A stretch of DNA of 64,000 bases, taken from NCBI RefSeq assembly GCF_964355755.1, contig NC_092670.1, positions 39,233,795 to 39,297,794 on the forward strand, given 5' to 3'. Shown piece by piece: positions 10,669 to 64,000 of the stretch (within the stretch, counting starts at the first letter, position 1; each line of letters starts with the position of its first letter). Position numbers and translations under genes: made by a program. The stretch is from Antedon mediterranea. Lineage: Eukaryota > Echinodermata > Crinoidea > Comatulida > Antedonidae. Under the pieces are notes generated by a model. It was not told the origin of the DNA. It did not search any database and worked only from the letters and a program-made list of their open reading frames with translations.

Positions 10669-11058
10669 GCGGACGAAATCGAAATGGTTGATTCTCGTAT
10701 CTTGTTCATATTGGTGATTCAAATCTTAAGTGTGTATTCCGGAAGATCAAATGTTGGATGTTCTAGGCAACAGATACGGCTTTCGATATCAATGGCAGAT
10801 TGTAGACCAAGGAATGTCTACCCCTTTGGTTGTAGAGGACAATGTGCATCTTACACGCGAGTTTCACCAGCAAACTTTTTAGAAATAGATCGACAATGTA
10901 AATGCTGTCAAGTCGGTGAGCAAGTGGACCTTCAAGTTAGACTGGACTGTCCGAAATTAAAGCCTCCAGTTGGCATGGTGACGGTAAAATCAGCCAAAAA
11001 CTGCTCTTGTAGACCGTGTAACTCTGTCGAAGTTCAATCTATTGAACCTTTTGCTTAA
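10669..11058 (+). CDS. Bursicon-alpha-like cystine-knot hormone, copy 2
   Basis: Second secreted cystine-knot hormone subunit, 124 aa from ATG 10684, on the same strand as copy 1 and about 5.4 kb downstream. The exon opens after TTTTTTATATATAG (AG 10667-10668), so it shares copy 1's layout: 5'UTR intron just before the ATG, then one intronless coding exon. Residues about 6-20 are a signal peptide ending near YSG. Eleven cysteines match copy 1: DCRPR, GCRGQCASYTRVSP, RQCKCC, DCPK, CSCRPCNS. Poly(A) signal AATAAA lies at 11161-11166. Both copies have the alpha-type GxCxSY and CRPC segments rather than the beta-type pattern, so this is a tandem paralogue. Whether the two products pair with each other is unknown. 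Confidence 0.9.
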   Translation, partial: ADEIEMVDSRILFILVIQILSVYSGRSNVGCSRQQIRLSISMADCRPRNVYPFGCRGQCASYTRVSPANFLEIDRQCKCCQVGEQVDLQVRLDCPKLKPPVGMVTVKSAKNCSCRPCNSVEVQSIEPFA

Positions 11059-20721: not shown

Positions 20722-23700
20722 ATGGAGAGTGAAGAGTTTGACCGTTGGAAAACAACAATGTTACAATCATTTTCAGGACTGTCCGACAGACAAAAATGCA
20801 CTGCCCTTGAGTTGTTAATTGATATCTGCGGACCTGCCCAACTTACCTACTTATCTGAGCTACAAACTCTGATGCAAAGAGATTTCCTTAAATTGTTACC
20901 CCTAGAAATCTCCTATCATGTCATTAAATGGCTTGATATAGATTCTTTAAAAACATGTTGTCTTGTAAGCAAAAAATGGAATGATGTAGTGAATGGATGT
21001 GCAAAGATTTGGTTGGCTGCCTGTCATAACCTCGGCTTCAACAAGAAATATGCCGCCACTGACAAAAATGCACACTATTGGAAGACCATGTGTCGGAGTC
21101 TCACAGAAAAAATGAAAGCTTTAACAAATAGGTGTTCTTTTAAATGGAATTTGTTGGAAGGGCACACTGGAATAATTACAGCAATCTATTATGCCAATGG
21201 CATTCTAGTGTCTGGTAAATAAAGACTTTAATTTTCTTAACTGTACTTGAACGTGCATCATGCTATGTTGCATTTTCAAATTGTTTATTCCATACATGTG
21301 GAATGTGTAATACACATTGTGTTTTTCAAAATGGAAGCCACAGCAGATTGAATCTGCATTCATTTTTGCTGTAAAATTAGTACTGCAGTAATGTTTTTAA
21401 TCCATTTGCTTATTTTTTATGGACAAACCTAACTACAGGCCTCTGTACTCTTATAAAATCTCTAAACATATTTTAGATTTAAGTAGACTATTTTGGATTA
21501 CTGTGACATTTTATGCTTAGGTAGCTATGACTTGACAGTGCGTATTTGGAACGTCAATAATAATGAATGCAAGAAAGTTATTCAGACACACAGTTGTGCA
21601 GACATCAAATTTGTTGGAAATCAACTTGTAACAGCCTCTTATAATTGTACTGTTGGATTATGGGATATGGAGACTGGCAGTAATGTTAGAATGTACGTTG
21701 GTCACACATCAGCAGGTAATAAATCGGTCATGCATGCTTAATTCGATTCCTTACCATTGAGATTATATTATGGGATATGCAAATCAGTTATGAAAGGTGA
21801 AAACTGTACTACTTAATATTGAATTGAAGCTTACTGTTACTGTACTACAGTATCGTTAAAAACCTAAAATGATGATGATTGTAAAAAGGCAAGAAATGAA
21901 AATGTTGACACTAATGTATTGTTACTTACAGTTTTCTGTGTAGATCTTGATGTCACAGCACAAATAATTGTCAGTGGCTCGGGTGACTGTACAATCAAAG
22001 TTTGGAGTTTGAATTCAAACCAATGTCTTAAAACGTTTGTCTGTGAAGACTGGGTAAAAAATGTAAGTTTTGTTTTAATTATTGTAGTGTATTCCCAAAA
22101 CAAATAAAAGTTTAGTATCAAGATACAAGACAATGTGTTATTCCTTTTGAATGTTCATTTAACGATATATTGTCCCCTGCAATTCTGATGGTCTTTACTG
22201 TAAAATTGAAGTTATTGTTATTAATTAATTTAGGTAATAGTTGAAAGGTGTAAGACCAATTCACTTTATCATCGGCAAGGGGAAGTGGTGATTTTGGGTG
22301 CAGAATGGACTACAAACGTTATCAAGGCAAGTTTATGTTTAACTGGTTACGTTTCAACATTTTCTTCAGCCACATAGAACAACATAGCCATGATAATTGT
22401 TTCACATCCTACATTTTCATATTATACACTAGGCATTACAGTATATTACTTATATAAAGAACTTTTGATTAATTTTCTACATTAATTTAATAAAATGTAA
22501 TAAAATTACTAGAACGTGTACTGTATGAAAAATGTAAAAATAATGGTCACGCATGGTTTTTTTTTAAACTTTATTTTGCATACTATTATTTACCTATACA
22601 ATAATGTACTTCATTTAAAATTTTATTTTACAATGGTTGCACAAAACCATCTTTATATATCATTTTGTGCTTAACCCTTTGAAGACGTGGCCATACGGGG
22701 TAATTTACTGTTCCAGGACGCGAGGCCCGTATACGTACAGGTTGACTCTTTGGTCACTGAATTGCAAAAAAATTATTTATTTATTGGAAGGCCAAAACAT
22801 TTCACATAATAAAATCAACAATTGCAGAAAGTTACAGTCATAAAAATGTATTTATTTTTCCTAAACCTATTAAAAAATACCTTATTTAGCCTCAGTCACT
22901 TGGGTTAGAAACCTCTTCAAAGGGTTAAGCAACTTTTTAAACAAATTGAACCAGACAAATTTGATAAAGCACACAAAACAAAAATGCTTTTTTTTATAGA
23001 TCTGGTCATTATCGAGTGATTATGCACCTCAGCCTGTATCTTTAAAATCGCATACTGGTAGGGATATTACAATGAATAAACCATACCTCAAGATTGATGG
23101 CAACATAGTAATATGTGCATGGGATAAGTGTGTCAATTTCTGGAACTTTGAAACATTGCAAATGATTAACTCGTAAGTATTATATGACTAGCTACATTAC
23201 CTCTATGCTTTGTCCCACTACAGTTAGGACAAAACGTAACCTGCAAATTACTTGGTCAATGTCTAGCTAGTGCTTTACACTATCCTTAAATTTGATGTAC
23301 AGTATATATTTATTTTTCAATTTAAATTAAATTTTTTTAATGATACCAAACAAAAGAATTGCACATTTTGACTGAAAACTTGAATCTGCTGCATCAAGTT
23401 ATTTACGGCTGTTTTAACTTTAAAGCTCTGCACTATCACTATCAAATTTTATGCGAGAAAAAAATGTACCATATTTAGGCACATTTGTAAACTAGTTTGA
23501 TAGTGTAGACATAGCTTAAGAAAAATTAAAAGTTCATTGTTTCAAATACAGTAATGATGCTTAAAATGTGTAATGTTCTTCCAATGACAGATGTGAACTA
23601 CCTTGCCTTCTTGGCTATGGCTCAATGTTTGGCCTTGGAGCTTTTTACAGAGGATTCACTGTACTGTGCCGATTCAACAACCACATAATATCAAAACACA

Positions 23701-42250: not shown

Positions 42251-45200
42251 TTAGAACTTTGACTCAGTAGTTGATCGTGCCGTCATTTCCGTCATGCTAT
42301 GAACATAATTCTTCCGTTTAAAACGTTTTTTAAAACAATCTCGTATCTGTGGATAAAATAATAAAAATATTATCCAAAATGTCAATATAATATGAATTAT
42401 TACATTAATTTAATGTCATGTCACGCCACGTAAAAAATGTTTTCTACTTCTTAACGAAACTCAACTCATCCACTTGCCTCATTCTCCAAAACACAATATA
42501 TAATAAATATGAATATTCCTTGACAGCCATTCAGAAAATTGAATAGATAGTCGACAGGAATTCCAGCAGAACCAATAGCAAACGGTCCAATAAGCCACGT
42601 GGTCCCCATCAGCGGCAGCAGCATGACTGCTCCTCTGGCCGCTTTCCTAACAAAGAACAACATTAAATATCGTTATTTTTATTTATTTATTTCATAGGTA
42701 TCCAACAGCGAGGACAAACTCGCCAATTAAATGATGGGATAAACTATTTTATAATTTATCGTGCTTATAAACTAAGTCTCATTTGAGGCTTATGGAGTGG
42801 AGTTGAAAAACTCACTAGTGAGTGGCACTATACAAGATTGAACCCCGGACATTGGGATTGGCACGTTAACCACAAATACCGCTTCACTTTAGGTCTATAG
42901 ACCTATTCGTTTGCGAAAAAGATTGTTATTTCGTTCAGATACATCATATATACAATACATTATAGAACCAAGGAAACGTAAAATTTACTCTTCTCTGATG
43001 AAACCAATGCTCATTTTAAGGAATAATAGGCTATGAGCTACGTATATCGACAAAACTAACCTCAGCTGTTTAAATGTATTTTTCTCTTTGACAGACTTTC
43101 CAACCATTTGTCCTGATCGCTTGTAGATTGTGTTGACTACAACATACATTATACCGGTATTTATCTACGTAAAATTACATTATAATTATTAATGTCTAAC
43201 ATAATAAGGAACTATAACTGGTACAACTTCTGCAAGCTAGCTGCTAACTACCATAACAGCGTGTGCCATTCAGCAAGTACCTTACTAACAATAAAGCTTT
43301 ATATTATAAGTTACTATAACTGGGCAAAATAAATAGAAATAGTTGATACTTCAAAGAGACACAAAGTTGACGCGCGCGCGCATACAAAAACCGTTCCACT
43401 TCACGCGCGCATCTAATTGATTGCATTCAATTAATAGTTTTAAAATGACAATAAAACAATTGTCAAAACTGTATAGACAAACTATGCTATACATTACCAA
43501 CACAATAACAGTTACTGGTGCAACAAAAGTCCATATCATTCCCGTTTCTTGACTTAGCCAACATCTATACAATAAAACAGTATAAAGCTCTGTCTACACT
43601 ATCAAACTTTATATGACACAAAAATGTGATGTGCCCATGCATGGACATGATGATGTCATATCACTACTATAGTTTGGTTTATCACTACCATATTTTGGCA
43701 CATCACACTTTTTTGGTCAAACTAGTTTGATAGTGTAGGGAGAGCTTAAAATAGTATACAGTAGTAGTGAATGGATATATTAGTATCTTTTTTAAATGAG
43801 AACTAAATCATCTTAATGTATCATTATGTAAATCAAGCAGATGTTTGTAACGTGGGCTACTTTGATAAAGCATGAACAACCGGGAAAATCTGAACATACT
43901 TGTAAGCCTAACTTACAGGTTATCGACGTTGTAATCACCCGAAAATGCAGCAGAAGAAACAGCAACGATGAGAATAGGAATTCCGTAACACATCATCATG
44001 TAGTATAGAAGTCGGTTGTATTTGTGAGAGATTGATGTAGAAATTTTAAAATACAAGAATACTGCTTCAGCACACATCCATGTGAATACATTGAGAGAAG
44101 TAAGATGGAGAATAACGCTAATGATTCTACAAGTTGTCTATAATATTAAATATCATTGTTATTATCTACGGAAGATCTCAATAATGAATGTGATTGAAAT
44201 TGGTAGTAAACCTTAAGAGACAAGTTGTCTATAAAATAAATCACTAATTGTTACTCTATTGCTATTTTTAAATTTCAAAAGGGTGTTACTATACTATTTT
44301 ATCTTATCTTTTTATAAAGATGCATTGATATTAAAATGTTCGGGTGGCTTCCATGCATGCGGCTTTTGGCCTTAATGGAAGTCTCCCTGGTCCTTTTGTA
44401 TATTTTTTGCTTTGTATTTTTTTCTTTCTTTTGGATCAAATAAACTGATTTGTGACTTGTGACTTGTATTATAAAATGAAATTATTACAAAAATTAGAAG
44501 CAGGTTAAAGATTTTCAATAATATTTTAAGATATAATAACAAAAAGAAAAAAAAATTCCAATGAGATAGATTCTGAAAATATTATAACATTCATCACTTT
44601 ACACTTACAGCCTTTACACATTTATCTCATTTCAATTTAGAGTGGAAAGGTTTAAGCTCTGTCTACATTATCAAATAAAACCAAATTATTATACAAAGTT
44701 TGATAGTGTAGACAGAGCTTTATGCCGTTTGTACGCATGCGTTGTGTGTTTATGACGTCACTGGTGACTTACTTGGTTGCCCGTCTTATCAATTGCAAAG
44801 AGAAACAGTGATTGCATCAGTATCATATTCAGAACCAAGTTCTTGTGAATTGAAATACGCAAAGATTTCCAGAGTTCCCTTGATAAGAAAACATATATAT
44901 TCTAAAAATGTTCGTAATGGTGCATTAGATGAAATACAGTAGATAAATTTTGATTATGGAATAAAATGATACTTACATATAAGAAAGGTAAATCACAAGA
45001 GAAGTGGATAGCGCTATGAGTGACAATGACACACAAATTGATGACATCTGACTCAACGTTTTACTTTCCTCTTCAGAAATCTGAAAGTAACATTTTAAGG
45101 TTGTACTATATATAAACTTTTTTATACTTGATTTTTTGCTTTCAGACCTATGGCCTACGAATGCACACAAACATTTGAAAATGTCATAAACAATTTTTTA

Positions 45201-47244
45201 TCACTATCAATTACTATTTGGACTAGAAAATATGTAAGAGAGGTTTAACATACCTCTACATGTGTAACTTTCATAAGAACACTAAAACTAGTAAGATGTT
45301 CCGAATTACAAATCACTTGGTTCGTAGAGTTCAACGTAGCTGTTAAACCTCTGTCATTCCAAATGCTTCAATTTCCAAAAAACAAAAATAACATTATTTT
45401 GTTTTATTAACTTTTGTATGCAACGCATTGATACTTTATGGTTATACTTCGTATCTTCCACTATAAAGTGGAAATTACTTCAACTACTGTACAACATATA
45501 TGAGTTTAGATACTGTAATTAAAAGTAGTTCAGAGTGAACAGATTTTTTTTAAATCATTGTACTATTAACGTTAAACAATACCTTTCTATTTCATCATAG
45601 TAAAGACATACTGGGCCAACGATTTTTTCTGTTTTGTCCGTGACGTTCTATAATAAAAGTTTCGGTGAGATTATTTTGTGTTGAAATTAAACACGAGTGC
45701 AGATTATCACAAACATTTATTAAAAATGATTTTCGTCAACCAATAGTGAATTTACATTGATTTTAATTTCTTTCTTCCATGATGGATGGATTTGTTTAAG
45801 CTCATGAAATCATTACAACGGCTTAACTGAAAATTGAATCTCCTATCTGTATGCGAAATTACCTGTGTGCCATAATTGTAGAGACACGTCGTAACTTTAT
45901 TTAAACAATTTTCTCGTTAACAAATCTGTCACACATATTTTTTTTAACATAGAATAGGAACTGCTACTCAGAATATGCAGATGTCCCTTCAATCTTGAAA
46001 GCCTTTTGGGCACACGATGGTCTTGGTAACTGATCATTATAGTATGACAATGAAGAATGACTTACAAAATCATCTGATACGGTAAAATTAATATTAGCGT
46101 TAAGGCTGCTATTGTCTTCTACGTTGTATACGCTGCACGAGAATATCTTGTCACTAAACAAGCGAAATTCACCTTCCACATTATCCCTAAAAAATAGCAT
46201 AATTATGATTTTTATCCTAATGTTATATTTTTAGAAAGGTAAGTAACTGAACTCATTAGTAATTTACATTAATTTATTGATTGTTTAGCCAGTGAAATCA
46301 TACTTAGTGTTGAACTGTAAAAATGATTTCAACGTTTAAAATTATAACACTATTACTCACTGATCTTTAACATCTACTATCGCGTAATCGTTTGGAGTTT
46401 GTGTATTATTACTGAACCCCGCAATAATCAGCACAGTAACTGGAATTAAAATGAGCAAAACAAAGTTTATCCATTTAGTTATTAATATACAAAATTAATT
46501 AAGTGTACCCATATTCTCCACAAATTCCGGACAGACAGACATACAGAGATTTTCTTTTTAAACATTTATTTAACTTTTAAGTAAGTAAATCAAATATTTA
46601 CTTATTATTACAGTTTCGAAATAAGTACTATTAAACGATCGTTTAATAGTGCGTACTATTGCACGCCAAGTGACCCACAATCGTCCAATCAAATGACAGG
46701 AATTTATTTAGGTGTTATATAATATAATATAAGTTACATTTAGATAATATATAGGATTTTACGTGTTTTCTTGTTACTAGTAAAGGACTATGTTCAAAAT
46801 AGAAATGTCATTTTAAAATAACCAACCTTCTAAATCAGTTTTAATTCCAAGGGTAAATTCCACCATGCTCCCCATAAGTTGCAGGCTGTTGTGAATTGAG
46901 CTATTCTTATGAACACTCTCTTTCACTGCTAATCCAACTATATAATAAATGAAATAGTTACATAGTGTTTTAAAGTACATCAATACGTTAACAACATGCG
47001 AATAAACTATACGCTTTTATGGCGACATTGTTGATGACAAAACCGTATTAATAGTAGTAGCTGTTGTAGCCTAACTCTTTAAAAAAGTAATAGAAATTAC
47101 AACTACAGTATCTACAGTTTGATATGAAAAGTTACCAAAATTGTCCTCGCTGTATGATTTCTCTTCATTTATTCCCAAGTTCGAATATTCTGTAAGAACG
47201 TTTTCTTCAAAGTTTTCGAATTCTGTTATAATGGCATTCTGTAC
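42251..47244 (-). CDS. GAIN, GPS and seven-transmembrane exons of the adhesion GPCR
   Basis: Exons: 47244-47136, 46937-46827, 46439-46361, 46186-46066, 45647-45583, 45365-45254, 45080-44977, 44878-44773, 44137-43917, 43564-43498, 43164-43061, 42646-42478, 42346-42251. The first four are GAIN-like (many Asn/Ser, SCSVYN). GPS: VCLYYDE, then IWNDRG, then ICNSEHLTSFSVLM, with predicted self-cleavage between L and T at about 1963/1964. TM1 is in 45080-44977. TM2 starts after LRISIHKNL, an adhesion-GPCR hallmark. TM3 has FTWMCAEAVFLY, TM4 YGIPILIVAV, and ECL2 CWLS with IWTFVAP leads TM5. TM6 reads LLPLMGTTWLIG and TM7 LFNFLNGCQGIFIFIIYC. The tail after ENE is 31 residues, basic then Ser/Thr-rich. 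The last intron uses a GC donor (GAG then GCAAGT). Confidence 0.9.
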
Positions 47245-50200
47245 CTATGAGATAATGTAAAAGCTGATTTCAATTAGATATTATTTTCCGTCATGTTCTT
47301 CTTAGAAACTAACTCGAACATTAAGTATAATCGCTCCTTTTATTTGCAGTTAAGCACATGACCAATAAACACTGTAACGAAGAAAAAATGGAAGAAACGA
47401 ACCTTTTCTGGAGTAAAATGATTTCCGTCCAATTGCAAATTGTAGCATTAGATAAATAAAACATAATATACAAATTACGATTCTTAAGCCCTGTCTACAC
47501 TATCAAGTAGTTTGACCAAAAAAAGTGTGATGTGCCCAAATATGGTAGTGATGTTCCAAAATATGGTAGTGATATGACATTATCATGTCCATATATGGGC
47601 ACATCACATTTTTTTGGTACATTATTTAAAAATGTTTAAATTAATAATACAAAGCAAAATGCACTAACCTTTAACAGTAACAGTGAAAATGCAAACATTC
47701 TTATTCCTAGATGAATCTATAGCTTCAAAGGTAAATACATTTATGCCGAGGTTGACACGTGCCGGGAACGTTGCAAGTGGATCCGGTGAAATGATAACGC
47801 CGTCTCCTGAATTATCAGTTGCAGTTATAGTGTGTGAATAAAACAAGTGTTTGATTGGAAATTCCACATACAGAACACTCCCATTAGTTGGACACATGAT
47901 TGTGGGCTTTTCAGAATCTGAATATGTAAAAATATTTCTAAGAAAAAAGTAATTACATTTACACACGCATGAATATCATTTGAAACCGTTTGCATGCCCG
48001 CGCTTATCCTGTTACTTGTGCTAATTAAAGTACTAGGACTGGTGCTCTCAAACAGCAGAGGAATGAGGGAAAGGATATATTGAAATATATTTTTATCTAG
48101 TGCTTAAATTATACAGCTAGGTTGTGGTTCACCAAGACGATAAATAAAATAACATTTTCACCTTTTCCTTAAAGGTTTCCAAACTACTTTAGACCTAATA
48201 CAAAATAGTAATAATTAACACGGTAATAAATAATCTATAAAGAAGGAAAAATAAAATGAGAAAAAAGGAAAGTGAAAAGAAAACGAAAAAAGAAAAAGAA
48301 ACGAAAAAATGAAAGAAAACGGAAAAAGAAAAAAAGGAAAGAGTCTGTTTGAATCACCATTCGAAAACCATTTTCAATATTTTCTAAAAACATACATACA
48401 TTCCGAAAAAATACAAACCTTTAACTATCACCGTAAAGGTACAATTAGCAGTATTATAAGATGAATCGATCACGGTAAAAGTATATGAATGCTCTCCGAT
48501 TCCAATATCTGTTGGATACATTTCATGTGGATCAGGAACAATGCGTGTCTGACCAGAATTGTCGCTTACTATAATCAGCTTAATATAATCAGTAGAAGCT
48601 GTTGCCAAACTAACGTTAGTTTTCACCGTTTCACTATGTGGACATAAAATCAAAGGGCTTTCATTATCTGAAATGAAAACATAAATACTGTCGTTTATGA
48701 ATATTATTCGAATTATCTGGGGTTAACAAAAATAGGGATACAGAAAACTAGTATCACAAGTAAGCATACAGTTACTAACATTCAACCGTCACTGTAAATG
48801 TACAGTTTCCAGTATTGTGAGACGAATCTGTAGCAGTAAATGTAAATGAGTTCTCTCCAATTCCAATAACGGTTGGAAATGCTTCATATGGATCAGGAGA
48901 GATGCGAACCTCCTCTCTAGAATTATCGCTTGCCTTGATCGAGCTGGTAAAACCCACAGACACGGTGGCTAATCCAGTGTCAGTATTCTTATAAGCATCA
49001 AGCGGGCATGATACCAAAGGCTTTTCGTCGTCTAAAAAGGTTAACAATTTACAAATTCGATATCAGGAGATTTTTATTCTTTTCTAGGAGTATTAAAAGT
49101 AAGCACACAACTAACCTTTAACTGTCACCGTAAACGTACAGTTTCCAGTATTGTTAGACGAATCTGTAGCAGTGAATGTAAATACATGCTGTCCAATTCC
49201 GACATCAGCTGGATATACTTCATATGGATCAGGATAGATGTGTAGATCCTCACCAGAATTATCACTTACGCTGATCAATTCACGGTAATCAACAAAAGCT
49301 GTAGCCAAGTTTTCTTCAGTATTCTCATAAGTATCATTTGGACATGACAATACAGGGTTTTGGTTATCTATGAAATGAATATTGCACATTATAATTTTAA
49401 AAATATCATCTGGCTATATGTTGGGGAACTTGTTGGTTACATTTAATGTATAAACCACAACATAAACAATAAAGAGAAGTATAGCTACTAACCTTTAACT
49501 GTCACCGTAAACGTACAGTTTCCAGTATTGTTAGACGAATCTGTAGCAATGAATGTAAATACATTCTTTCCAATTACGACATCAGCTGGATATACTTTAT
49601 ATGGATCAGGATAGATGTGTAGATCCTCACCAGAGTTATCACTTACGCTGATCAATTCACGGTAATCAACAAAAGCTGTAGCCAAGTGTGCTTCAGTATT
49701 CTCATTCATATTATTTGGACATGACACTACAGGTTTCTGGTTATCTATGAAATGAAAAACACACAATAGTGTTAATTTTGTTTGATTTAAATTTATAATC
49801 TGTCCAAATGTTTTGGTGGATTGTCTTGTTTCCTACATACTGTACAACCCAGATAATCGTGGTTTTACTTGATGAAACATTAGCAATAAAAGTACGGCCA
49901 CTAACCTTCAACCATCACTGTAAATGTACAGTTACCAGTGTTGTCTGTTGAGTCTGTAGCAGTAAAAACAAATGAATGCTTTCCTATTCCGACATCAGCT
50001 GGATATGTTTCATTTGGATCAGGATAGATGTATAGATCCTCACCAGAATTATCACTTACACTGATCAATTCACGGTAATCAACAAAAGCTGTAGCCAAGT
50101 TTTCTTCAGTAATCTCATTCATATCATTTGGACATGACACTACAGGGTTTTGGTTATCTATGAAATGAATATTGCACATTATAATTTTAAAAATATCATC

Positions 50201-53200
50201 TGGCTATATGTTGGAAAACTTTTTGGTTACATTGAATGTATAAACTACAACATGAACAATAAAGAGAAGTATAGCTACTAACCTTTAACTGTCACAGTAA
50301 ACGTACAGTTTCCAGTATTGTTAGACGAATCTGTAGCAGTGAATGTAAATACATTCTTTCCAATTCCTACATCAGCTGGATATACTTCATATGGATCAGG
50401 ATAGATGTGTAGATCCTCACCAGAGTTATCACTTACGCTGATCAATTCACGGTAATCAACATAAGCTATAGCCAAGTGTGCTTCAGTATTCTCATAAGTA
50501 TCATTTGGACATAACACTACAGGGTTTTGGTTATCTATGAAATAAATATTGCACATTATAATTTTGAAAAAATTATCTGGCTATATTTTTTGGGGATATT
50601 TTTGGTTACATTTAATGTATAAAATACAACATGAACAATAAAGAGAAGTATAGCTACTAACCTTTAACTGTCACAGTAAACGTACAGTTTCCAGTATTGT
50701 TAGACGAATCTGTAGCAGTGAATGTAAATACATTCTTTCCAATTCCGACATCAGCTGGATATACTTCATATCGATCAGGATAGATGTGTAGATCTTCACC
50801 AGAGTTATCACTTACGCTGATCAACTCAATGTAATCAACAAAAGCTATAGCCAAGTCTGATTCAGTATTCACACTCATGTTATTTGGACATGACACTACA
50901 GGGTTTTGGTTATCTATGAAATGAATATTGCACATTATAATTTTGAAAATATCATCTGGCTATATTTTTGGGGGATATTTTTGGTTACATTGAATGTATA
51001 AAATACAACATGAACAATAAAGAGAAGTATAGCAACTAACCTTTAACTGTCACAGTAAACGTACAGTTTCCAGTATTGTTAGACAAATCTGTAGCAGTGA
51101 ATGTAAATACATTCTTTCCAATTCCTACATCAGCTGGATATACTTCATATGGATCAGGATAGATGTGTAGAACCTCACCAGAGTTATCACTTACGCTGAT
51201 CAATTCACGGTAATCAACAAAAGCTGTAGCCAAGTGTGCTTCAGTATTCTCATTCATATTATTTGGACATGACACTACAGGTTTCTGGTTATCTATGAAA
51301 TGAAAAACACACAATAGTGTTAATTTTGTTTGATTTAAATTTATAATCTGTCCAAATGTTTTGGTGGATTGTCTTGTTTCCTACATACTGTACAACCCAG
51401 ATAATCGTGGTTTTACTTGATGAAACATTAGCAATAAAAGTACGGCCACTAACCTTCAACCATCACTGTAAATGTACAGTTACCAGTGTTGTCTGTTGAG
51501 TCTGTAGCAGTAAAAACAAATGAATGCTTTCCTATTCCGACATCAGCTGGATATGTTTCATTTGGATCAGGATAGATGTATAGATCCTCACCAGAATTAT
51601 CACTTACACTGATCAATTCACGGTAATCAACAAAAGCTGTAGCCAAGTTTTCTTCAGTAATCTCATTCATATCATTTGGACATGACACTACAGGGTTTTG
51701 GTTATCTATGAAATGAATATTGCACATTATAATTTTAAAAATATCATCTGGCTATATGTTGGAAAACTTTTTGGTTACATTGAATGTATAAACTACAACA
51801 TGAACAATAAAGAGAAGTATAGCTACTAACCTTTAACTGTCACAGTAAACGTACAGTTTCCAGTATTGTTAGACGAATCTGTAGCAGTGAATGTAAATAC
51901 ATTCTTTCCAATTCCTACATCAGCTGGATATACTTCATATGGATCAGGATAGATGTGTAGATCCTCACCAGAGTTATCACTTACGCTGATCAATTCACGG
52001 TAATCAACATAAGCTATAGCCAAGTGTGCTTCAGTATTCTCATAAGTATCATTTGGACATAACACTACAGGGTTTTGGTTATCTATGAAATAAATATTGC
52101 ACATTATAATTTTGAAAAAATTATCTGGCTATATTTTTTGGGGATATTTTTGGTTACATTTAATGTATAAAATACAACATGAACAATAAAGAGAAGTATA
52201 GCTACTAACCTTTAACTGTCACAGTAAACGTACAGTTTCCAGTATTGTTAGACGAATCTGTAGCAGTGAATGTAAATACATTCTTTCCAATTCCGACATC
52301 AGCTGGATATACTTCATATCGATCAGGATAGATGTGTAGATCTTCACCAGAGTTATCACTTACGCTGATCAACTCAATGTAATCAACAAAAGCTATAGCC
52401 AAGTCTGATTCAGTATTCACACTCATGTTATTTGGACATGACACTACAGGGTTTTGGTTATCTATGAAATGAATATTGCACATTATAATTTTGAAAATAT
52501 CATCTGGCTATATTTTTGGGGGATATTTTTGGTTACATTGAATGTATAAAATACAACATGAACAATAAAGAGAAGTATAGCAACTAACCTTTAACTGTCA
52601 CAGTAAACGTACAGTTTCCAGTATTGTTAGACAAATCTGTAGCAGTGAATGTAAATACATTCTTTCCAATTCCTACATCAGCTGGATATACTTCATATGG
52701 ATCAGGATAGATGTGTAGAACCTCACCAGAGTTATCACTTACGCTGATCAATTCACGGTAATCAACAAAAGCTGTAGCCAAGTTTGCTTCAGTATTCTCA
52801 TTCTTATCATTTGGACATGACACTACAGGGTTTTGGTTATCTAAGAATAATGTTAATTTTTTTTAAATTTATAATCTGTCCAAATGTTTTGGTGGATTGT
52901 CTTGTTTCCTACATACTGTACAACCCAGATAATCGTGGTTTTACTTGATGAAACATTAGCAATAAAAGTACGGCCACTAACCTTCAACCATTAGAGTAAA
53001 TGTACAATTACCAGTGTTCTCTGATGAATCTGTAGCAGAAAAAGTAAATGAATGCTTTCCAATTCCGACATCAGCTGGATATACTTCATATGGATCAGGA
53101 TAGATGTGTAGATCCTCACCAGAGTTATCACTTACGCTGATCAATTCACGGTAATCAACACAAGCTATAGCCAAGTGTGCTTCAGTATTCTCATAGGTAT

Positions 53201-56200
53201 CATTTGGACATACCACTACAGGGTTTTGGTTATCTTGAAATAAAATATTGAACATTTAAATTTTTTAAATATCATACGGCTATATGAATATTTTTGGTTA
53301 CTGTACATTGAATGTACAAAATACAACATTAACGTTAATAACTATAAAAAAACACTATTCTCATTCGTATTATTCGGACATGACACTACCGGGTTTTGGT
53401 TATCTATGAATAATGTTCATTTTGTTTGATTTAAATGTATAATCTGTCCAAATATTTTGGTGGATTTTCTTGTTTCCTACATACTGTAGAAATCAGATAA
53501 TGGCGATAATGGTGGTTTTACTTGATGAAACATTAGCAATAAAAGTACAGTCACTAACCTTTAACCATCACTGTAAATGTACAGTTACCAGTGTTCGCTG
53601 ATGAATCTGTAGCAGTAAAAACAAATGAATGCTGTCCAATTCCGACATCAGCTGGATATATTTCATATGGATCAGGATAGATGTGTAGATCCTCACCCGA
53701 ATTATCACTTACGCTGATCAATTCACGGTAATCAACAAAAGTTGTAGCCAAGTTTGCTTCAGTATTCTCATTCATATTATTTGGACATGACACTACAGGA
53801 TTTTGGTTATCTATGAAATGAAAAACACACAATAGTGTTAATTTTGTTTGATTTAAATTTATAATCTGTCCAAATGTTTTGGTGGATTGTCTTGTTTCCT
53901 ACATACTGTACAACCCAGATAATCGTGGTTTTACTTGATGAAACATTAGCAATAAAAGTACGGCCACTAACCTTTAACCATCACTGTAAATGTACAGTTA
54001 CCAGTGTTGTCTGATGAGTCTGTAGCAGTAAAAACAAATGAATGCTTTCCTATTCCGACATCAGCTGGATATGTTTTATGTGGATCAGGATAGATGTGTA
54101 GATCCTCACCAGAGTTATCACTTACGCTGATCAATTCACGGTAATCAACAAAAGCTGTAGCCAAGTTTTCTTCAGTATTCTCATTCATATCATTTGGACA
54201 TGACACTACAGGGTTTTGGTTATCTATGAAATGAATATTGCACATTATAATTTTAAAAATATCATCTGGCTATATGTTGGAAAACTTTTTGGTTACATTG
54301 AATGTATAAACTACAACATAAACAATAAAGAGAAGTATAGTTACTAACCTTCAACTGTCACCATAAACGTACAGTTTCCAGTATTGTTAGACGAATCTAT
54401 AGCAGTGAATGTAAATATATGCTGTCCAATTCCGACATCAGCTGGATATATTTCATATGGATCAGGATAGATGTGTAGATCCTCACCAGAGTTATCACTT
54501 ACGCTGATCAAATCATGATAATCAACAAAAGCTATAGCCAAGTCTGCTTCAGTATTCTCATAGGTATCATTTGGACATAACACTACAGGGTTTTGGTTAT
54601 CTTGAAATAAAATATTGAACATTTAAATTTTTAAAATATCATACGGCTATATGAATATTTTTGGTTACTGTACATTGAATGTACAAATTACAACATGAAC
54701 GTTAAAAACTACACTGTAAAAATAGTGTTTAGATCTTAAACATGTATTTTGTACCCACTTTTTCCACACATTTAGCCTTAAACATGTTTAGATGTGAAAC
54801 ATGTTTAGGTTCTAAACACATTCTAAACATGTAGTCTGTATCCAACTCTACACATCAGTGACGTATTGATTGTTAAACATGTGGCGCAATATGAAGACAA
54901 GTTTAGGTTTTAAACGTGTTTAATTTGCCATGTGTGGAGCTCATGTGTGGAGCTTTTTTCCGCCACAGTAAAATCGTATGCACGCAACTCTAAACACATA
55001 CCTAAACATTTTGACTGCTAAACATGTGGAGTAATTGAACATAATATTGACATTAGTCAAGTGGAGGAAAACAACATGTAGCTATAAACACGTTTAGCTT
55101 TTAAACACGCTAAACATGTAACTCGTGTCTAAAAGCTAAACGTGTGGAAAAAGTGGGTACAAAATAGGTGTTTAAGATCTAAACACTATTTTTACAGTGT
55201 ATAAAAAAAAACAGTATTCTCATTCGTATTATTCGGACATAACACTACAGGTTTTTCATAGTCTGAAAATTAGTAGGCAATAATGTCAATTTGACTTTAT
55301 CAAAAAACATCGTCTGTTCAAATGATTTAAAATGACCGAATGTTATATAGCCACAGGAGACAAAGCCTAGAAATAACTTATAGTATATTCTACTTTTAAA
55401 GTAACTTACAAAGTAACACATACTGTACCTATAACTGTTATTGTAAATTTACATTCTGCAGTGTTTCCAGACAAATCTGTAGCCTTAAATCCAAACAATA
55501 CTGTTCCAATTCCAAAATTACTAGGAAATACATGATAAGGACAAGGAGATATGTTGACAAGGCCTATATTGTCCACAGCTGAAATCGACTGTGAATAGTC
55601 AAATTTTTTCGTAGATAAACCAATGTTAGTTGTTCCATACGTGTCGAGAGGACACGTCAATGTTGGTGGTTCTAAATCTGGAAATTAACAAGGTTACCTT
55701 AGACAGCCGCTCATAGAAAAGCTAACATTTTTATTTGTATTGGTTATTTCTTTGTTTACCGACTATTTGTTCGGAATAAATTAAAAGTAAACATGCGCAT
55801 GCTATTGAACCGGAAGATAAGCCTCTTTTTGTATGTTTGCAAAATTTTGCCAAAATAAAGTGAATGTTAGAAAAGAAAATCTTCAATCGTAACTTGAATT
55901 GAAGTAAATTATTACTTAAAATAATTTATACTGACCTCTCTCATAATAGTCGTAACGATGATAATCTGTGGTTAATCCGCCTGTGACCATAGATATATTG
56001 TGATCACTTAAATCACATTCTCTATTGTTGTACTTATAATAATCAAACGACAGACAATAAAACTCAGTAGTGTGAACACATTGTTCAGCACATACATCTG
56101 TTGGTACTGGCAACAGTTTCCTGGTATTGTACCCTAGTAATGCTGCGTCTTCATACTTCTTAAAATTCGAATCAAGGTAACCTAAATAAAAAGTGAGAGT

Positions 56201-59200
56201 GACTCCTCCTTAACTATGCGTACGGTCCCCTCTTTAACTATGCGTACGGTATGATGTCTATCGATAATAAACAGCCTGTGTGTCAAGTAGACCCATCATA
56301 ATGCCTAATATAAAATCACACTTAAAAAAAAAAACATCGATGAGGTTCGTGATCTACGTCTATATGTGGCAGCAGACATACGACGTAAGTATGTGTATTT
56401 GTTGAACCATAACGTATTCTACTTTCAGATTTTGTTAACAATGTACAGTATATCAAATAAAGTCTTAATTTAACAAATTCAAATTAGTTGAGAAGCACTG
56501 TATAAATTTATAGAAACAGTGTTTATTTTGTATTTTTTTTAGTGACATTTATGTACAAGGTTAGTAAAACAAAAACACAAATTGATCGCATTCTTAAAAC
56601 AGTTTATGCACGTACGCCGCGCACGCACGTGGCAAACTTAGTTGTGACACACTGTCATTAATCGTATTTTGCTTATGCTGTGATTATAAAAAAAAAACTC
56701 GAAGGTATTACTCACTTACAACCGTGATTGTAAAAGAACAACTAGCAACGTTCTGAAACGAATCCATTGCCATGAATTCAAATACATGTACACCAATAGT
56801 GATATCATTTGGAAATGTACTTGGATCTGGATATATTGTAACAGATTCTTTGGAGTTATCCGTTGCTTCAATTAAACCCGGATCAACATACGCCATATCA
56901 GTCACATAGTCTGCAGCATATGCCTGGTCACATGGGCAAACCAAGTTAGGAGCTTCAAGATCTAGAAAACACTTGGCAAAGGTTAGTAAAAACAAAAACA
57001 CAAAAGTAACGCATTACAATTTTGTATTGTACTGCATTGTATTGTGTATTGTGTGACCAACCGATTTGTGATGCCGCTGTCGTTTATCTAATTTTGCTTC
57101 AATTATTTGTTTTTGTGGTAACTTAGAGGATGTACTCTACTTAACTGTGATTTACATTAATTTTACATATTTGTTGATATTTCATATCTCCACGTGGCTA
57201 ATCGAATACGGCTTTACCACGTTAAAAATTGGTTCTCGTCAGACCACTAATGTTAAGCAACATTGAACCTGATTAGAGCTTGGGTGGGAGACCATCTGGG
57301 AATATCGGGTGCTGTATATAGAGCTGGGGTCCCAGACATTTGAAATCAGCACTGGTGACTCTTATGGCAGCCCCTGCATCTAGTATCTGCCTCAGACGTA
57401 CATCTTTTCCTCTGGTCAAGCTGGACGAAACCCTTGATCAAAGTTAGGAGCAATCAAGATGCTTTAAACAGTCCTGGCTTAGTTTCATCCATCATTAATT
57501 CAGATGAATGTAAAACTAATTGACATTGTTGTTTATGACAGACGTCGGCCATAAACAAAAACAAACAAACATGACTAATCATGTTGCGAACAGTACCAAT
57601 GTTTATTAAAGGCATAATATATATACATAATATTCCCCATAATATTTTATAACAATAAGTTGTATTTCTTACCTTGGACCGTGATTGTGAATGAGCATCG
57701 CTCAACCTCAACTCCGTCAGCATTTTGAGCAACAAATTGAAAATATGTTTCTCCAATAACTACATCAGTTGGAAATATATCGGATGGATCAGGATGTATC
57801 GTAAAACGATCAGAATTGACACTGATAGAATAGCGATAATCAATAGTTCTTGTAGACGATCTTCTGTCAGTATTTACTGTAGCATCATCAGGGCAAATTA
57901 TGTGTTGGTTAACTGTAATGGAGTTAGTATTCGAACGTTGAGCTAACGAAATATCATGAAGGTATCAGTATAATAAAATAAAAAGACACGAAAGAACAAA
58001 GGTACAAATTTCCCACACCTGTGCGTAATTACACACGATTCTGATACGGAATTTGACGCCCAGAAACTGATAAATATGTCAGAGAATTTTCACTCTTCCT
58101 ACGTTATGTCAACGCTTTTTGGAAGATCAGCCTTTTTTGATGATATTTGAACTAGATTGATGTCGTTTTGTTTTTAACAAGCACGAATGTGCAATACTCG
58201 GGGTACAGCGAAAGAAGCTGTATACAGACGTATACAGTTAGAATGTAAAGAAAATAGGTTTCGCCAGGGCTCGAACCGGGACCTTCTGCGTGTTAAGCAG
58301 ACTTGACAACCACTACACTACGAAACCTCTTACATTAAAAATGTGGGTTACAGAAAGTTTTTTAATCCATTTAAATTACAAATAAATGGTAATAAGCACA
58401 AAGCAAAATAAACATGTGTAAAAGTGATAATTACCGATTACACAAAATAAGTATTTTAAAAAAGAATAAAAATAAGATATACTCTGTATAATTATCATAT
58501 TGCGTATACAGTACTTTTCACCATAAATTAAAAAAAAAAAGGTTTCGTCCGGGCTCGAACCAGGTACCTTCTGCGTGTTAAGCAAACGTGATAACCACTA
58601 CGCCAAGAATCCGCATATAACCATATAACTACATAACGCTGTGGTGTGTGTCACACATTGTGGCTTCTTAATTAAACAAATTAATTAACAAAAAATTAAA
58701 AATCCGGCTCTATAGCTTTGAGGACATGTCCCTGTAGTATGTTCATGCCAAATCCCAGCTCAATACTATAACGAATAAGGGAGGAGTAGTACTTTAAAAA
58801 TCGCACTTTTTACTCAATAGTGTCCAGATGGAGGAAGAGAAGGAGAAAATGAGTAAGTACTAGACTCGGGTACCCCGAGTAAAAATTGAGATATATTATT
58901 TAGGATTAGGTTCATTTAACATTGACAGCCGTGTGTTATTGTCGTTGGGACAGTGCGGTTTATTGTCGCTAGCCGAAAATAATAACAAAATCATTATACC
59001 TACTGAACTAATTTAAAGAGACTGTTATGCAATTACTACACAATCGTAGATGATAGGATACAAAAGTTGAAACTGCACAAAGGCCCGTTAAAATAATGGT
59101 GAATAAACAGATTGACCCAAACTTCCATCATATTGGCATAATGTTGAACAAAAGTTCGACTTACTTAGTGTGTCATAATGTACCTTTAAAACTACTAAAA

Positions 59201-59304
59201 GTATAAGGAAGTTGAAATAAAAATAATTAAAAGTTACCAGTGGCATCATAGTATTGGAACATAGTAGATGCAGATATGAATACAAATGGTATTAGTTGAA
59301 ACAT
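42251..59304 (-). CDS. Giant adhesion GPCR with HYR and PAN ectodomain (about 2,264 aa)
   Basis: Predicted plasma-membrane adhesion GPCR (class B2). Order: signal exon 59304-59238 (MFQLIPFVFISASTM); HYR exons 57912-57673 and 56961-56716; PAN/apple exon 56181-55936; HYR exon 55677-55429; 17 HYR exons between 54600 and 47669; GAIN/GPS and 7TM exons from 47244 to the stop at 42251. All joins are phase-consistent (2,265 codons) if a 5-base exon at 47407-47403 links the HYR array to the GAIN region; that link is the one weak point. The ectodomain would give a very long rod. The HYR fold is immunoglobulin-like and was first named in sea urchin hyalin. Ligand unknown. An alternative is that the HYR array and the receptor are two genes, but no stop with poly(A) signal or new signal peptide is seen between them. 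Confidence 0.8.
42786..42896 (-). mobile_element. tRNA-derived SINE fragment in the last-but-two receptor intron
   Basis: On the minus strand: TGTGGTTAACGTGCC (box A-like) then CCGGGGTTCAATCTTG (box B-like), followed by TATAGTGCCACTCACTAGTGAG. The spacing is like tRNA-derived SINE heads, but no complete tRNA fold or A-rich tail was found. Confidence 0.35.
43583..43749. mobile_element. Palindromic MITE, family B, full copy in the receptor gene
   Basis: AAAGCTCTGTCTACACTATC and the matching right arm AAACTAGTTTGATAGTGTAGG...AGAGCTTAAA. It lies about 20 bases upstream of the TM5 exon acceptor, in the intron. Confidence 0.85.
44340..44470 (+). mobile_element. LINE 3' end in the receptor gene
   Basis: GGCTTTTGGCCTTAATGGAAG, a T-rich stretch, then GGATCAAATAAACTGATTTGTGACTTGTGACTTG. 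The AATAAA followed by tandem GTGACTT copies is the usual microsatellite-like 3' terminus of CR1/L2-type elements. It is opposite to the gene's orientation. Confidence 0.5.
44652..44724. mobile_element. Palindromic MITE, family B, minimal copy
   Basis: TTTAAGCTCTGTCTACATTATCAAA and AAAGTTTGATAGTGTAGACAGAGCTTTA with almost no interior. It is about 50 bases beyond the donor of the TM2 exon (44878-44773), inside the following intron. Confidence 0.85.
47484..47630. mobile_element. Palindromic MITE, family B, between HYR array and GAIN exons
   Basis: TTAAGCCCTGTCTACACTATCAAGTAG, then AAAAAGTGTGATGTGCCCAAATATGG, GACATTATCATGTCCATATATGGGC and CATCACATTTTTTTGG. The right arm is eroded. It sits in the one intron whose exon structure I could not settle. 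Confidence 0.75.
49628..52782 (-). repeat. 1,548-bp tandem duplication covering four HYR exons
   Basis: Sequence from about 49628 to 51234 recurs from 51176 to 52782 at a constant offset of 1,548 bases, introns included. Exons 49906/51454, 50283/51831 and 50662/52210 encode identical proteins. The unit boundary falls inside an HYR exon: the left copies differ at GTGTAGA(T/A)CC, the right at AAGT(G/T)TGCTT. Such identity in introns means the duplication is recent, or the assembly has placed two haplotypes in tandem. Confidence 0.9.
53350..53403 (-). pseudogene. Truncated HYR exon relic 1
   Basis: After an acceptor (TTCATAG) the sequence reads (D)NQNPVVSCPNNTNENS and then runs into T-rich non-coding sequence with a stop; the remaining 65 codons and the donor are missing. 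The acceptor looks usable, but inclusion would end the protein, so it should be skipped. Confidence 0.8.
54712..55199. mobile_element. 488-bp inverted-repeat element, TA-flanked, beside an HYR relic
   Basis: CACTGTAAAAATAGTG at the left and CACTATTTTTACAGTG at the right begin inverted repeats of about 64 bases that differ at only a few positions (TTAAACA, TATTTTGTACCCAC, TTTTTCCACAC). TA lies at both edges (54710-54711, 55200-55201). The interior is rich in AAACATGTTTA words. The relic at 53350 shows the same flanks without the insert. TA duplication suggests a Tc1/mariner-type MITE. Confidence 0.85.
55210..55262 (-). pseudogene. Truncated HYR exon relic 2
   Basis: After TTTTCAG: (D)YEKPVVLCPNNTNENT and then a T run and stop. 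It breaks off at the same point as relic 1 and shares its T-rich flank, so one relic was copied from the other. The 488-bp inverted-repeat element lies immediately beyond the break. Confidence 0.8.
55936..56181 (-). other. PAN/apple-domain exon of the adhesion GPCR
   Basis: Phase 1-1 exon of 246 bases encoding about 82 residues: KYEDAALLGYN, then VCAEQCVHTTEFYCLSFDYY, then NNRECDLSDHNISMV. The C...C......F.C.SF.Y......C.LS spacing is the PAN/apple signature, a fold used for protein or glycan binding in plasminogen, HGF and coagulation factors. It sits between the second and third HYR domains. The preceding HYR exon must use donor A/GTGAGT (56716) to keep frame. Confidence 0.8.
57203..57447 (+). 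mobile_element. 5S rRNA-derived SINE or 5S pseudogene
   Basis: 57207-57322 follows 5S rRNA: TACGGCTTTACCACG, TCTCGTCAGACCAC, GTTAAGCAACATTGAACC, GCTTGGGTGGGAGACC, CTGGGAATATCGGGTGCTGTA. The internal promoter region (box A/box C) is well kept. About 120 bases of unrelated sequence (AGCTGGGGTCCCAGACATTT...) follow, as in SINE3-type elements. It lies in the second intron of the receptor gene, opposite strand. The 5S part is diverged, so it is not a functional rRNA gene. Confidence 0.75.
58256..58327 (-). tRNA. tRNA-Val (AAC)
   Basis: Minus strand: GGTTTCGTAGTGTAGTGG opens the gene. The acceptor stem GGTTTCG/CGAAACC pairs fully. The anticodon arm is TCTGC-TTAACAC-GCAGA, giving anticodon AAC. Boxes A and B (GGTTCGAGC) are intact, and length is 72. 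One mismatch (C-T) is seen in the T stem. A T run is not immediately downstream. It lies in the first intron of the adhesion GPCR, on the same strand. Probably functional, but a recent pseudogene cannot be excluded. Confidence 0.75.
58540..58612 (-). pseudogene. Second tRNA-Val (AAC)-like copy, probably decaying
   Basis: GGATTCTTGGCGTAGTGG, anticodon loop TTAACAC, box B GGTTCGAGC and terminal CGAAACC. The acceptor stem has two mismatches and the T stem one, so folding is weaker than in its neighbour 210 bases away. A T-rich run follows the 3' end, as for a Pol III terminator. Confidence 0.65.
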
Positions 59305-60640
59305 TATAATTCCAGCAATGATTTTTTATACTAGCAAACAATGCAGCCAGCAGCAGGCAGTATAATGACCTTTGACCTCGTGCATACGGCTTCCAACGTT
59401 AACTTCCGCTACACCAGTCTAAGTCAGATCACTTTTTCAAACATATACATATATTATTAAGTATTTTGTCGTCTTTTCATTCGATCTCAGTCGTGAACAA
59501 CAAATAATTATCAGCAAAATTCAAAATTTGTTACGGTATCCTACCAGTCCAAGAGGACTGATGCATCCACCTGCATCCACCTGCATGCATATATATGGAA
59601 ATACACGAGAAGAGTGATGCATCCACCTGCATATGGAAATACACGAGAAGAGTGCCAGTTTGTGAACTCCCACATGTTCTCATCTTTTATCATTTTAAAT
59701 TGTGTTCTGTATTGACTTAAAATATCACAATGAGTCAATAAGAACTATATAATTACGACATGTTGTTCATCAAGGTTATTTAATTAAGAGGAAATATCTT
59801 TCAATATTATTAAATTATTAGAACAGTCTTTTTTACGTGAATTATTCGTCTTTCAACTTTTGTTATTTATACTTACAATGATTTCAAGAAAACAAAGAAT
59901 ATAATATAATAGTGAATACATATTAAATCATATATAAAACATCGTCAGCAAAGTCAGTCAAGGTCAGTCAATTAGAAACAAAATTAATTTACTCTGTTCA
60001 ATATTATTAAATTATAGGAAGATTCTGTTTTCATTTATTTTGAATTATTTATATTTGTATACATTATACTCTTTTCTTTAATTACAACAAAGAATTTTAT
60101 CTAAAAATGGAAAATTAAATTGAAATTAGTTCTGACTTATCAGAGTCAAACACAAATATGTCAAGTATTATTGAATTGTTGTAAGTCTGTTTTCATTTAG
60201 ATGTCTATACTGTTTTAGTTTGGTTTTTCTATAAATATTGGCATACTAAAACAACAAAAAATCTATCAAAATTTATCATATATAATGTATTATTATTTAA
60301 ACACGAAATTAGTTTAGATTAAATAAACTGACTTTAAACATATTATTGAAACAGTCAAATGTTTTTTTTATACGGGTTAAATTAGTTTACTTTGTTTTAA
60401 AACAAATAATATTTCACGATCAACAGATTCAATTGTCTGAATTTAATGAAATTAGATATATTAAATTATTTTGTCTGTTGTTTTTTTATATAATATAATT
60501 TAATTTCTACACTTTAGGGGGCTAGAGAGTTACTCGATAGTGACTCTGATAATCCCGTCTACCTCCTAAAGTGGAGGCCTACTTTGTGACCCTTTAATCT
60601 TTTATTATTTGATAAAAAGATAAAATGAAAGTGTACTTAC

Positions 60641-62896: not shown

Positions 62897-64000
62897 CTAT
62901 GAAGATGTATTTAAAAACTTTAACTTTTGCTTTTCAAATATTTTAACAGCTTTTAAATATATTTGATAATCTGCAGATAAGGCTTCATTAACAAGTTTGT
63001 CAGCTTTCAGTCTTTCAATCATTACACTGTTAACTCTCGTTCTTGATGCATCTTTGAAGGTAGTGTTGACAACTATATTTGTGTAAGCTCCACTGAAGTT
63101 ATCATGCATTCCACGACATTCATTTTGAAATGGTACATCAAACACCGCCCCCATTAGTTGTAAGGACAAATCATACTCGCTAGTCAAACCAACAAAAGCG
63201 AACCACTTTTCAAAATGTTCCAGTACAAACTGCGTAAGAGCGTTATATTCATCTTTTGATAGCAAATGTAATAAAATAACTTTTTCTCTAAACCAGAAAG
63301 GTGTTTGCAGATACATGTCATTTTTAACAACATTTCTTTTATAGTACTCTTTAAAGCCATTACAGAATTTAGGATTAAAAAGCAGTTGTCGAAAAAAGAA
63401 ACTACCTTGATGTACTGCCCATTCATTTATGGATACTTTCCATGGATCCAGGGCTCTGCATAGCTGATCCGTTCTTGCACGGCGGCAGTAAGAATAGCTT
63501 GAAACCGTTCGTTCATAAGGGTCTCTTAAAAACGTAAAATAAGAACAAGGTCTAGATAAATCATCGCATACGCCAAACGAATAATCTCCCATCAACGCGT
63601 CAAACACGTAGTGCTTCTTTAAGGATACGCGTACGCAATCCGTTAGCACATGCCAGACGCGTTTATGAAATTTAGGCAAGGTTTTCAACATACAATTTTT
63701 TGTTGTAGTTCCCGCCGCTTTGTTATAATGCACGTATACTGAAACAGCATCACGATAAGAGTTGGTTGATACATTTGCTGACATTGTGAAAAAGTTTGGT
63801 AAAAAGTTACGTAACCTGATCCATGGCAATTTATCTAGTGCCGAGGTCAAAGGATCTTTGTTAAGGTCTGTAACTTGTGGTCGTGGTGTATCAGTATCCT
63901 GTTCAATCATGTCGGTAACATTATTTAAGCCCACCGGGGTTACGATTGGTACTGTGTTGCCAAGTTGTGATAGTGGTTCCGATGTTCCATTCCTCCTTGA
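62897..64000 (-). CDS. Carbohydrate sulfotransferase-like protein, 3' part (runs off the right edge)
   Basis: The reading frame is open from the window edge to a TAA at 62897, 367 residues visible. A GTG at 63934 is not a start: the frame continues upstream without a stop, so the N-terminus (probably a type II signal anchor and stem) lies outside. PAPS-binding motifs are clear: the 5'-phosphosulfate loop VHYNKAAGTTTK (near 63730-63695) and the 3'-phosphate segment FTFLRDPYERTVSSYSYC (near 63538-63485). These place it in the Golgi sulfotransferase group (Pfam Sulfotransfer_2 type). Cysteines and Asn-linked sites (NFSG, NTTF) fit a lumenal domain. Acceptor sugar cannot be told. The visible catalytic part is a single exon. 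Confidence 0.8.
   Translation of the reverse strand, partial: SRRNGTSEPLSQLGNTVPIVTPVGLNNVTDMIEQDTDTPRPQVTDLNKDPLTSALDKLPWIRLRNFLPNFFTMSANVSTNSYRDAVSVYVHYNKAAGTTTKNCMLKTLPKFHKRVWHVLTDCVRVSLKKHYVFDALMGDYSFGVCDDLSRPCSYFTFLRDPYERTVSSYSYCRRARTDQLCRALDPWKVSINEWAVHQGSFFFRQLLFNPKFCNGFKEYYKRNVVKNDMYLQTPFWFREKVILLHLLSKDEYNALTQFVLEHFEKWFAFVGLTSEYDLSLQLMGAVFDVPFQNECRGMHDNFSGAYTNIVVNTTFKDASRTRVNSVMIERLKADKLVNEALSADYQIYLKAVKIFEKQKLKFLNTSS

Follow-up and report, generated by a model that had tools for sequence, protein, structure and literature searches.

The reverse strand of a 64,000-nucleotide stretch of the Antedon mediterranea genome (RefSeq assembly GCF_964355755.1, contig NC_092670.1, positions 39,233,795 to 39,297,794; hereafter the window) carries a gene that we consider likely to encode a crinoid adhesion G-protein-coupled receptor (GPCR) with a rod of about 20 HYR domains, an apple/PAN domain near the outer end of the rod, and direct attachment of the rod to a short GAIN-like domain. 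The gene model starts at the ATG at 59304 and ends at the TAA at 42251, exactly the limits given in a preliminary description of this DNA made from its letters alone. Its 35 candidate exons join in phase into one frame of 2,265 codons without an internal stop; about 157 stops would be expected in the spliced sequence from base composition, and the other two frames hold 142 and 305. The domain order is leader, HYR1, HYR2, PAN, HYR3, HYR4 to HYR20, a GAIN-like stretch with a GPS motif, a seven-transmembrane (7TM) region, and a short tail. The one-gene chain proposed in the preliminary description (HYR-HYR-PAN-HYR, 17 HYR, GPS, 7TM, tail) was thus recovered, in an echinoderm. All 34 introns have an AG acceptor and 33 have a GT donor, the remaining donor being GC (GAG/gcaagt after 42478; the slash marks the boundary). 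Every HYR exon (20/20) and the PAN exon are in phase 1-1.

The domain content was assessed with Pfam. In the scan of the full model, HYR scored 411 bits, 7tm_2 147 bits, and GPS 31.5 bits, all above their cut-offs, and 18 HYR stretches passed alone, so that the tandem HYR domains by which HYR proteins are recognized are present. Twelve further families (e.g., Spindle_Spc25) appeared in the same scan through added-up weak hits in the repeats, none of which passed alone, and are taken as chance. The figure of 20 HYR copies comes from a profile built from those same exons and is therefore circular. PAN_1 scored 34.8 bits (cut-off 21.4) when the PAN exon was scanned alone; it was absent from the lists of the 527-residue and full-length scans, perhaps through an effect of the HMMER filter. 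The Pfam GAIN model matched neither the receptor model nor its GAIN part. We use the label GAIN because the GPS is present and the region is homologous to P0001 of the crinoid Anneissia japonica, with which the GAIN-B-like stretch is conserved.

The GPS (31.5 to 34.1 bits, cut-off 22.5) lies ahead of transmembrane helix 1 (TM1) and holds the putative cleavage motif HL/T in SEHLTSFSVLM, followed by SFSVLMKVTHVE. Its first and last cysteines are kept and the middle two are gone, as in Anneissia P0001 and in the Octopus ADGRL4 row of the alignment. The class-B 7TM region is intact; the 7tm_2 match (147 to 151 bits) covers profile positions 3 to 250 of 250 in the full-model scan, and cysteines are found in TM3 (TTCRIIS) and extracellular loop 2 (NLCWLS). 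The solved relatives closest to the C-terminal part are ADGRD1 (phmmer E value of 2.5e-53) and ADGRL3 (6.2e-46); sequence searches with two HYR copies and with the PAN exon gave no match to a solved structure. By its predicted GPS and 7TM region, the receptor is an adhesion GPCR.

The 252-bp exons HYR4 to HYR17 share 84 to 100% DNA identity, and HYR9-12, taken as a block with its introns, matches HYR13-16 with 99.0% identity over 1,541 bp. Tandem duplication of such near-identical phase 1-1 exon blocks would allow rod length to change fast. About 50 bases of an extra HYR exon are left at 55262-54740 (-), followed by an inserted element whose ends, by eye, look inverted; the NCBI model of the locus, P0025, skips it. 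That the array is a product of chance or a pseudogene was rejected on account of the open frame and of the ratio of nonsynonymous to synonymous change (dN/dS). A decaying or mis-assembled copy, its HYR number inflated by the assembly of identical blocks, is very improbable in our judgment. The two 1.55-kb blocks that are 99% identical and the insertion that breaks the extra exon at 55262 are what such a history would leave, but the 35 exons contain no stop and the median dN/dS is 0.42 among the HYR4-17 pairs with dS > 0.05, yet with dN > dS in 12/91 of all pairs. HYR9-12 and HYR13-14 are also present in P0025, though this model was derived from an assembly of this species and hence is not independent.

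Several observations weigh against a single receptor gene. P0025, named "hyalin-like," runs from part of HYR1 through PAN to HYR14 and has no 7TM region, into which the receptor model is phase-continuous from the adhesion modules of its long N-terminus. A fused model was found neither among the five matches of a protein search with the GAIN/7TM part, which covered models of 784 to 2,494 amino acids and had Anneissia P0001 as its best match, nor among the best 120 of 749 matches of a whole-model search (1,245 to 3,964 amino acids), in which P0025 came first. At 39.04, 39.14, and 39.38 Mb of contig C1, HYR arrays continue into EGF modules, and the 10 kb after each contained no match to GAIN or 7TM; these arrays were rejected as close paralogues of the receptor on these grounds and may be HYR genes near the locus that are not receptors. 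The stretch from exon G2 to HLT is about 150 residues long, roughly half the usual GAIN length, and the GPS has two cysteines where most aligned relatives have the usual four. At the junction itself, the acceptor of G2 (46937) is in phase and has the top score of all AGs in the 731-bp gap between HYR20 and G2 (9.1, next 5.1; 7.3 with itself left out), but the splice-site profile was trained on the receptor model, 14 exons of which are near-copies, so that this score is partly circular, and a phase match would arise by chance in 1/3 of cases.

The evidence on the other side begins with how P0025 ends. It is identical to the receptor model residue for residue over 1,220 residues within HYR1 to HYR14, and its end (VKG) is a read-through of the HYR14 donor. 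The HYR14 exon, together with the 60 bases after it, is identical to HYR10, and P0025 splices at the HYR10 donor, so the sequence offers no separate basis for the end; six in-frame HYR exons (HYR15 to HYR20) lie past it. We therefore read P0025 as a truncated prediction and rejected its end as the true end of the gene. The preliminary description had named, as the result that would refute one gene, transcripts with a separately ending HYR array and a separate promoter for the GAIN/7TM part: the annotation, though not transcripts, matches this in part through P0025, but the sequence gives no basis for the place where that model stops. Anneissia P0001 aligns from the exact G2 boundary (KVG[LI]A) with 110/235 residues identical, an EGF module preceding that boundary in P0001, and the acceptor of G1 (47222) ranks only seventh among the AGs of the gap (-3.2 with itself left out). 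Because of the acceptor scores and the start of this alignment, we prefer a direct join of HYR20 to G2, which gives a protein of 2,236 amino acids, and rejected the doubtful G1 as a secure exon.

We regard it as improbable that the locus holds two genes, one for a secreted hyalin-like HYR/PAN protein that stops no later than HYR20 and one, close behind, for an unrelated adhesion GPCR that starts near G2, although a separate hyalin-like model exists, the same megabase has HYR arrays not followed by a 7TM match within 10 kb, and two AATAAA motifs are found in the gap. That number is near the approximately 1.6 expected there from the density of AATAAA/ATTAAA in the introns of the model (2.1 per kb). 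A search under fixed limits found no first exon resembling a leader in the gap, where the shuffled expectation is 0.185 and the absence accordingly weak evidence, or in the three upstream introns tested, while six were found upstream of HYR1 versus 1.48 expected by shuffle; with looser limits, the gap showed two open starts of weak hydrophobicity. The read-through end of P0025 with six in-frame HYR exons after it also argues against two genes, as does the usual position of HYR domains in those receptors that have them close by, which is upstream and on the same strand. In a reading that overlaps with the single gene and does not compete with it, one gene would produce, through alternative starts or ends, both a soluble HYR/PAN form and a receptor whose rod is full or shorter. 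P0025 may reflect such a short transcript, as read-through past the HYR donors (AAAG/gttag) gives an immediate stop after VKG, and Antedon P0011, of the receptor family, is annotated as hyalin-like without 7TM beside the 7TM models P0006, P0007, P0008, and P0010. The end of P0025 nevertheless falls inside a duplicated block with 99% identity, to which reads would not map unambiguously, and we find this reading doubtful.

For the single receptor gene, which we prefer, the features are listed in Table 1. The identity of the leader exon, E1 or the alternative listed with it, is uncertain. Further poor-scoring splice sites are the acceptors of G6, HYR1, and T6 and the donor of HYR3. A same-strand open frame of sulfotransferase type (62900-64000) sets the 5' limit of the gene.

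Table 1. Features of the predicted receptor gene, in window coordinates
Feature	Position	Strand	Basis or remark
E1, candidate first exon, weak signal peptide MFQLIPFVFISAST	59238..59304	(-)	Open frame with phase-1 donor
Alternative leader exon	59249/59246-59165	(-)	More hydrophobic and better donor than E1
Start of P0025, different from E1 and the alternative leader	inside open reading frame 59541-59744	(-)	NCBI model
HYR1 exon	57673..57942	(-)	Frame, Pfam; in part in P0025
HYR2 exon	56716..56961	(-)	Frame, Pfam; P0025 splices alike
PAN/apple exon, phase 1-1, between HYR2 and HYR3	55936..56181	(-)	PAN_1 on exon alone; same join in P0025
HYR3 exon	55429..55677	(-)	Frame, Pfam
HYR4 to HYR17, 14 exons of 252 bp	49116..54600	(-)	Frame, DNA identity
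HYR18 exon, donor T/gttagt	48780..49031	(-)	Frame
HYR19 exon	48419..48667	(-)	Frame
HYR20 exon, phase-1 donor	47669..47917	(-)	Frame
G1, doubtful 87-bp linker exon; frame kept if skipped	47136..47222	(-)	Weak acceptor
Exons G2 to G6, GAIN-like stretch (~150 residues) and GPS	45254..46937	(-)	GPS match; homology to Anneissia P0001
Seven 7TM exons and short cytoplasmic tail	42251..45080	(-)	7tm_2 match; stop TAA 42251

Other genes and elements were seen in the window. The sulfotransferase-family frame at 62900-64000 (-) is 367 amino acids long, scores 24.8 bits (cut-off 22), and runs past the window end. The first intron of the receptor model holds two tRNA-Val(aac) genes or tRNA-derived elements at 58255-58612 (-). 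Two DAN/cystine-knot open frames, which we take to be bursicon-like from their appearance, lie at 4754-5242 (+) and 10669-11055 (+) and are perhaps a tandem pair. An F-box open frame is found at 20713-21219 (+); by eye, its end resembles the start of a WD40 repeat.

The rest of the Antedon genome was surveyed for GPS, HYR, and 7tm_2 matches; counts apply to the matches listed, and the 150 listed HYR matches do not include the receptor gene's own copies, which are thus not counted. HYR lies within 40 kb of 15/139 listed GPS exons, always upstream on the same strand (15, with 0 downstream and 0 on the opposite strand). Among 7tm_2 clusters, built from 150 listed matches out of 160, 10/111 have an HYR match within 40 kb, and in 10/10 it is upstream on the same strand. 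Related tandem copies in these counts are not independent, so no probability was attached to them. At 39.57 Mb of contig C1, 46 unspliced HYR open frames occupy the 40 kb before the GPS of that locus. At 6.59 Mb of C1, the spliced C-terminal part reads HYR-EGF-Ig-SEA-GPR128_N-like-GPS-7TM, with Ig just below the Pfam cut-off. A model spliced from another Antedon locus corresponds to P0006, with identity over the 937 residues searched. On C7 at 24.78 Mb (24774501-24784500, -; L032), HYR exons are followed by a divergent GPS (HTTFGIFT) and then a 7TM exon, which makes a third HYR receptor lineage possible.

Two further arrays were observed in the same survey. A very long HYR array with repeating blocks lies ahead of a receptor GPS at C1:6550735-6591020 (+; L017 to L021), and the first residues of P0006 are the end of an HYR exon in this array; judged from this match, the P0006 model is probably cut at its 5' end. 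At C7:2285068-2320980 (-), eleven GPS exons, ten of equal score, lie in about 36 kb and are probably a recent tandem array.

An Ig-like repeat is about 4 nm long, and by analogy twenty HYR domains would form a rod of the order of 80 nm, with the PAN domain near its tip as a plausible ligand site. In the mechanism that we propose, the leader would direct secretion, the GAIN domain would cleave itself at HL/T, and the N-terminal fragment of about 1,960 residues would stay attached noncovalently. Like the HYR proteins of the echinoderm hyaline layer, the outer HYR/PAN domains would bind partners in the matrix or on cell surfaces, and a pull on the N-terminal fragment, or its loss, would free the tethered agonist TSFSVLMKVTHVE and thereby start G-protein signaling. 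The cleavage and tethered-agonist steps are proposed because GAIN self-cleavage, retention of the N-terminal fragment, and activation by the freed agonist are the established adhesion-GPCR mechanism, as described in sections of two papers (PMC13197933; PMC12716839). A mechanosensing role is plausible. If the join is true, the echinoderm hyalin repeat would also form the ligand side of a family of adhesion GPCRs, a direct and testable link from matrix to G protein, and with near-identical, duplicating HYR exons, rod length would be a natural variable for studying lever length versus release of the tethered agonist.

In the open-access literature searched, to which subscription papers do not belong, we found no description of an adhesion GPCR with an HYR rod. 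Neither hyalin nor PAN domain has a match in 300,000 of the 412,533 characters of a 2026 review (PMC13197933), and HYR and hyalin are absent from the main text of a paper on choanoflagellate GPCRs (PMC12716839). In the portion of PMC6626334 consulted, the matches to HYR are "hyrax." The family is easily missed, since public predictions are labeled "uncharacterized," "hyalin-like," or "versican core protein-like" and the model at this locus is apparently truncated.

The preliminary description knew of no described receptor of this kind. Unnamed predictions with HYR rods are in fact public (Antedon P0006, P0007, P0008, P0010, and P0052 and P0043 of the sea star Patiria miniata), two of them with a similar rod size, and because of these the gene at this locus seems to belong to a broader echinoderm type. 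Antedon P0052 (3,449 amino acids) combines HYR, EGF, Ldl_recept_b, Ig, SEA, GPS, and 7tm_2, with 22 HYR domains by the locus-repeat profile and 21 Pfam stretches passing alone. HYR, GPS, and 7tm_2 also occur in one predicted Patiria protein (P0043, LOC119726452, 3,871 amino acids) together with Reeler and EGF, with 23 HYR domains by the same profile and 15 Pfam stretches passing alone. In Amphiura filiformis, P0050 holds HYR (17 by the profile, 17 Pfam stretches passing alone), EGF, Ig, and GPS and breaks off at the start of the 7TM region. These similar rod receptors suggest a receptor type that senses the surrounding matrix.

A tree was built from 20 GPS-7TM segments, several of them long-branched and the Anneissia P0001 row partial; Antedon 7TM loci L001 to L008, P0022, and P0024, in which the pattern found no GPS, were outside it. 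The receptor groups with the partial P0001 row (support of 100/100). Its 7TM region lies outside an 11-row group (100/99) that joins the other Antedon HYR receptors and the Patiria receptor to vertebrate rows of ADGRG2 type and an Octopus ADGRL4. The HYR label requires four changes on the tree versus a mean of 6.0 after shuffling, and 35/500 shuffles were as low. The tree topology agrees with HYR having been joined to adhesion GPCRs at least twice; one ancient joining followed by losses is the simpler alternative and is compatible with the tree. More tentatively, and with slightly less than even confidence, we propose that echinoderms repeatedly joined HYR rods to adhesion GPCRs (at least two times, perhaps three) in tandem clusters with rods of a few to more than 40 HYR domains, which would act as length-tunable tethers reading the tension or identity of a hyalin-type coat, this locus being a distinct apple-domain version with a minimal GAIN domain.

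Antedon P0006, P0007, P0010, P0052 (C1-like contig), and P0008 (C8-like) resemble the receptor in having HYR arrays, GPS, and 7tm_2 but differ in their EGF, Ig, and SEA modules between HYR and GAIN, their four-cysteine GPS, and a 7TM region grouped with ADGRG2-like sequences. None of these intervening modules is in the Pfam lists of the receptor model, which thus has neither mark of the HYR-EGF-Ig-SEA (ADGRG2-like) echinoderm receptors, the collar modules or the shared 7TM clade. PAN does not appear in the Pfam lists of those Antedon receptors, a weak difference, as Pfam missed PAN in the long scans of this locus too. Patiria P0043 differs in its N-terminal Reeler, its many EGF modules before GAIN, and a 7TM region outside the receptor's clade. 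Anneissia P0001, named "versican core protein-like," is the nearest in GAIN/GPS/TM1-2 (the 110/235 identities given above) and shares the two-cysteine GPS; in its NCBI model, EGF instead of HYR precedes GAIN, and the sequence breaks off after TM2. This public model, with more than 600 residues of degenerate repeat followed by EGF, GPS, and the broken-off 7TM region, looks chimeric.

ADGRD1 and ADGRL3 share GPS-7TM homology with the receptor, and their ectodomains, of pentraxin type or with lectin and olfactomedin modules, are without HYR or PAN. Echinoderm hyalins and hyalin-like proteins (e.g., P0080 and P0091) share its long HYR arrays; unlike the receptor, the hyalin-like proteins have no GPS or 7TM in their Pfam lists, and hyalins are secreted matrix proteins. 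Two features look particular to the gene described here, the placement of a PAN exon within the HYR rod and the HYR-GAIN junction without intervening modules. The receptor is most likely a distinct variant, with its PAN domain, direct HYR-GAIN junction, and separate 7TM clade, of an unnamed echinoderm HYR-rod type already represented in public predictions.

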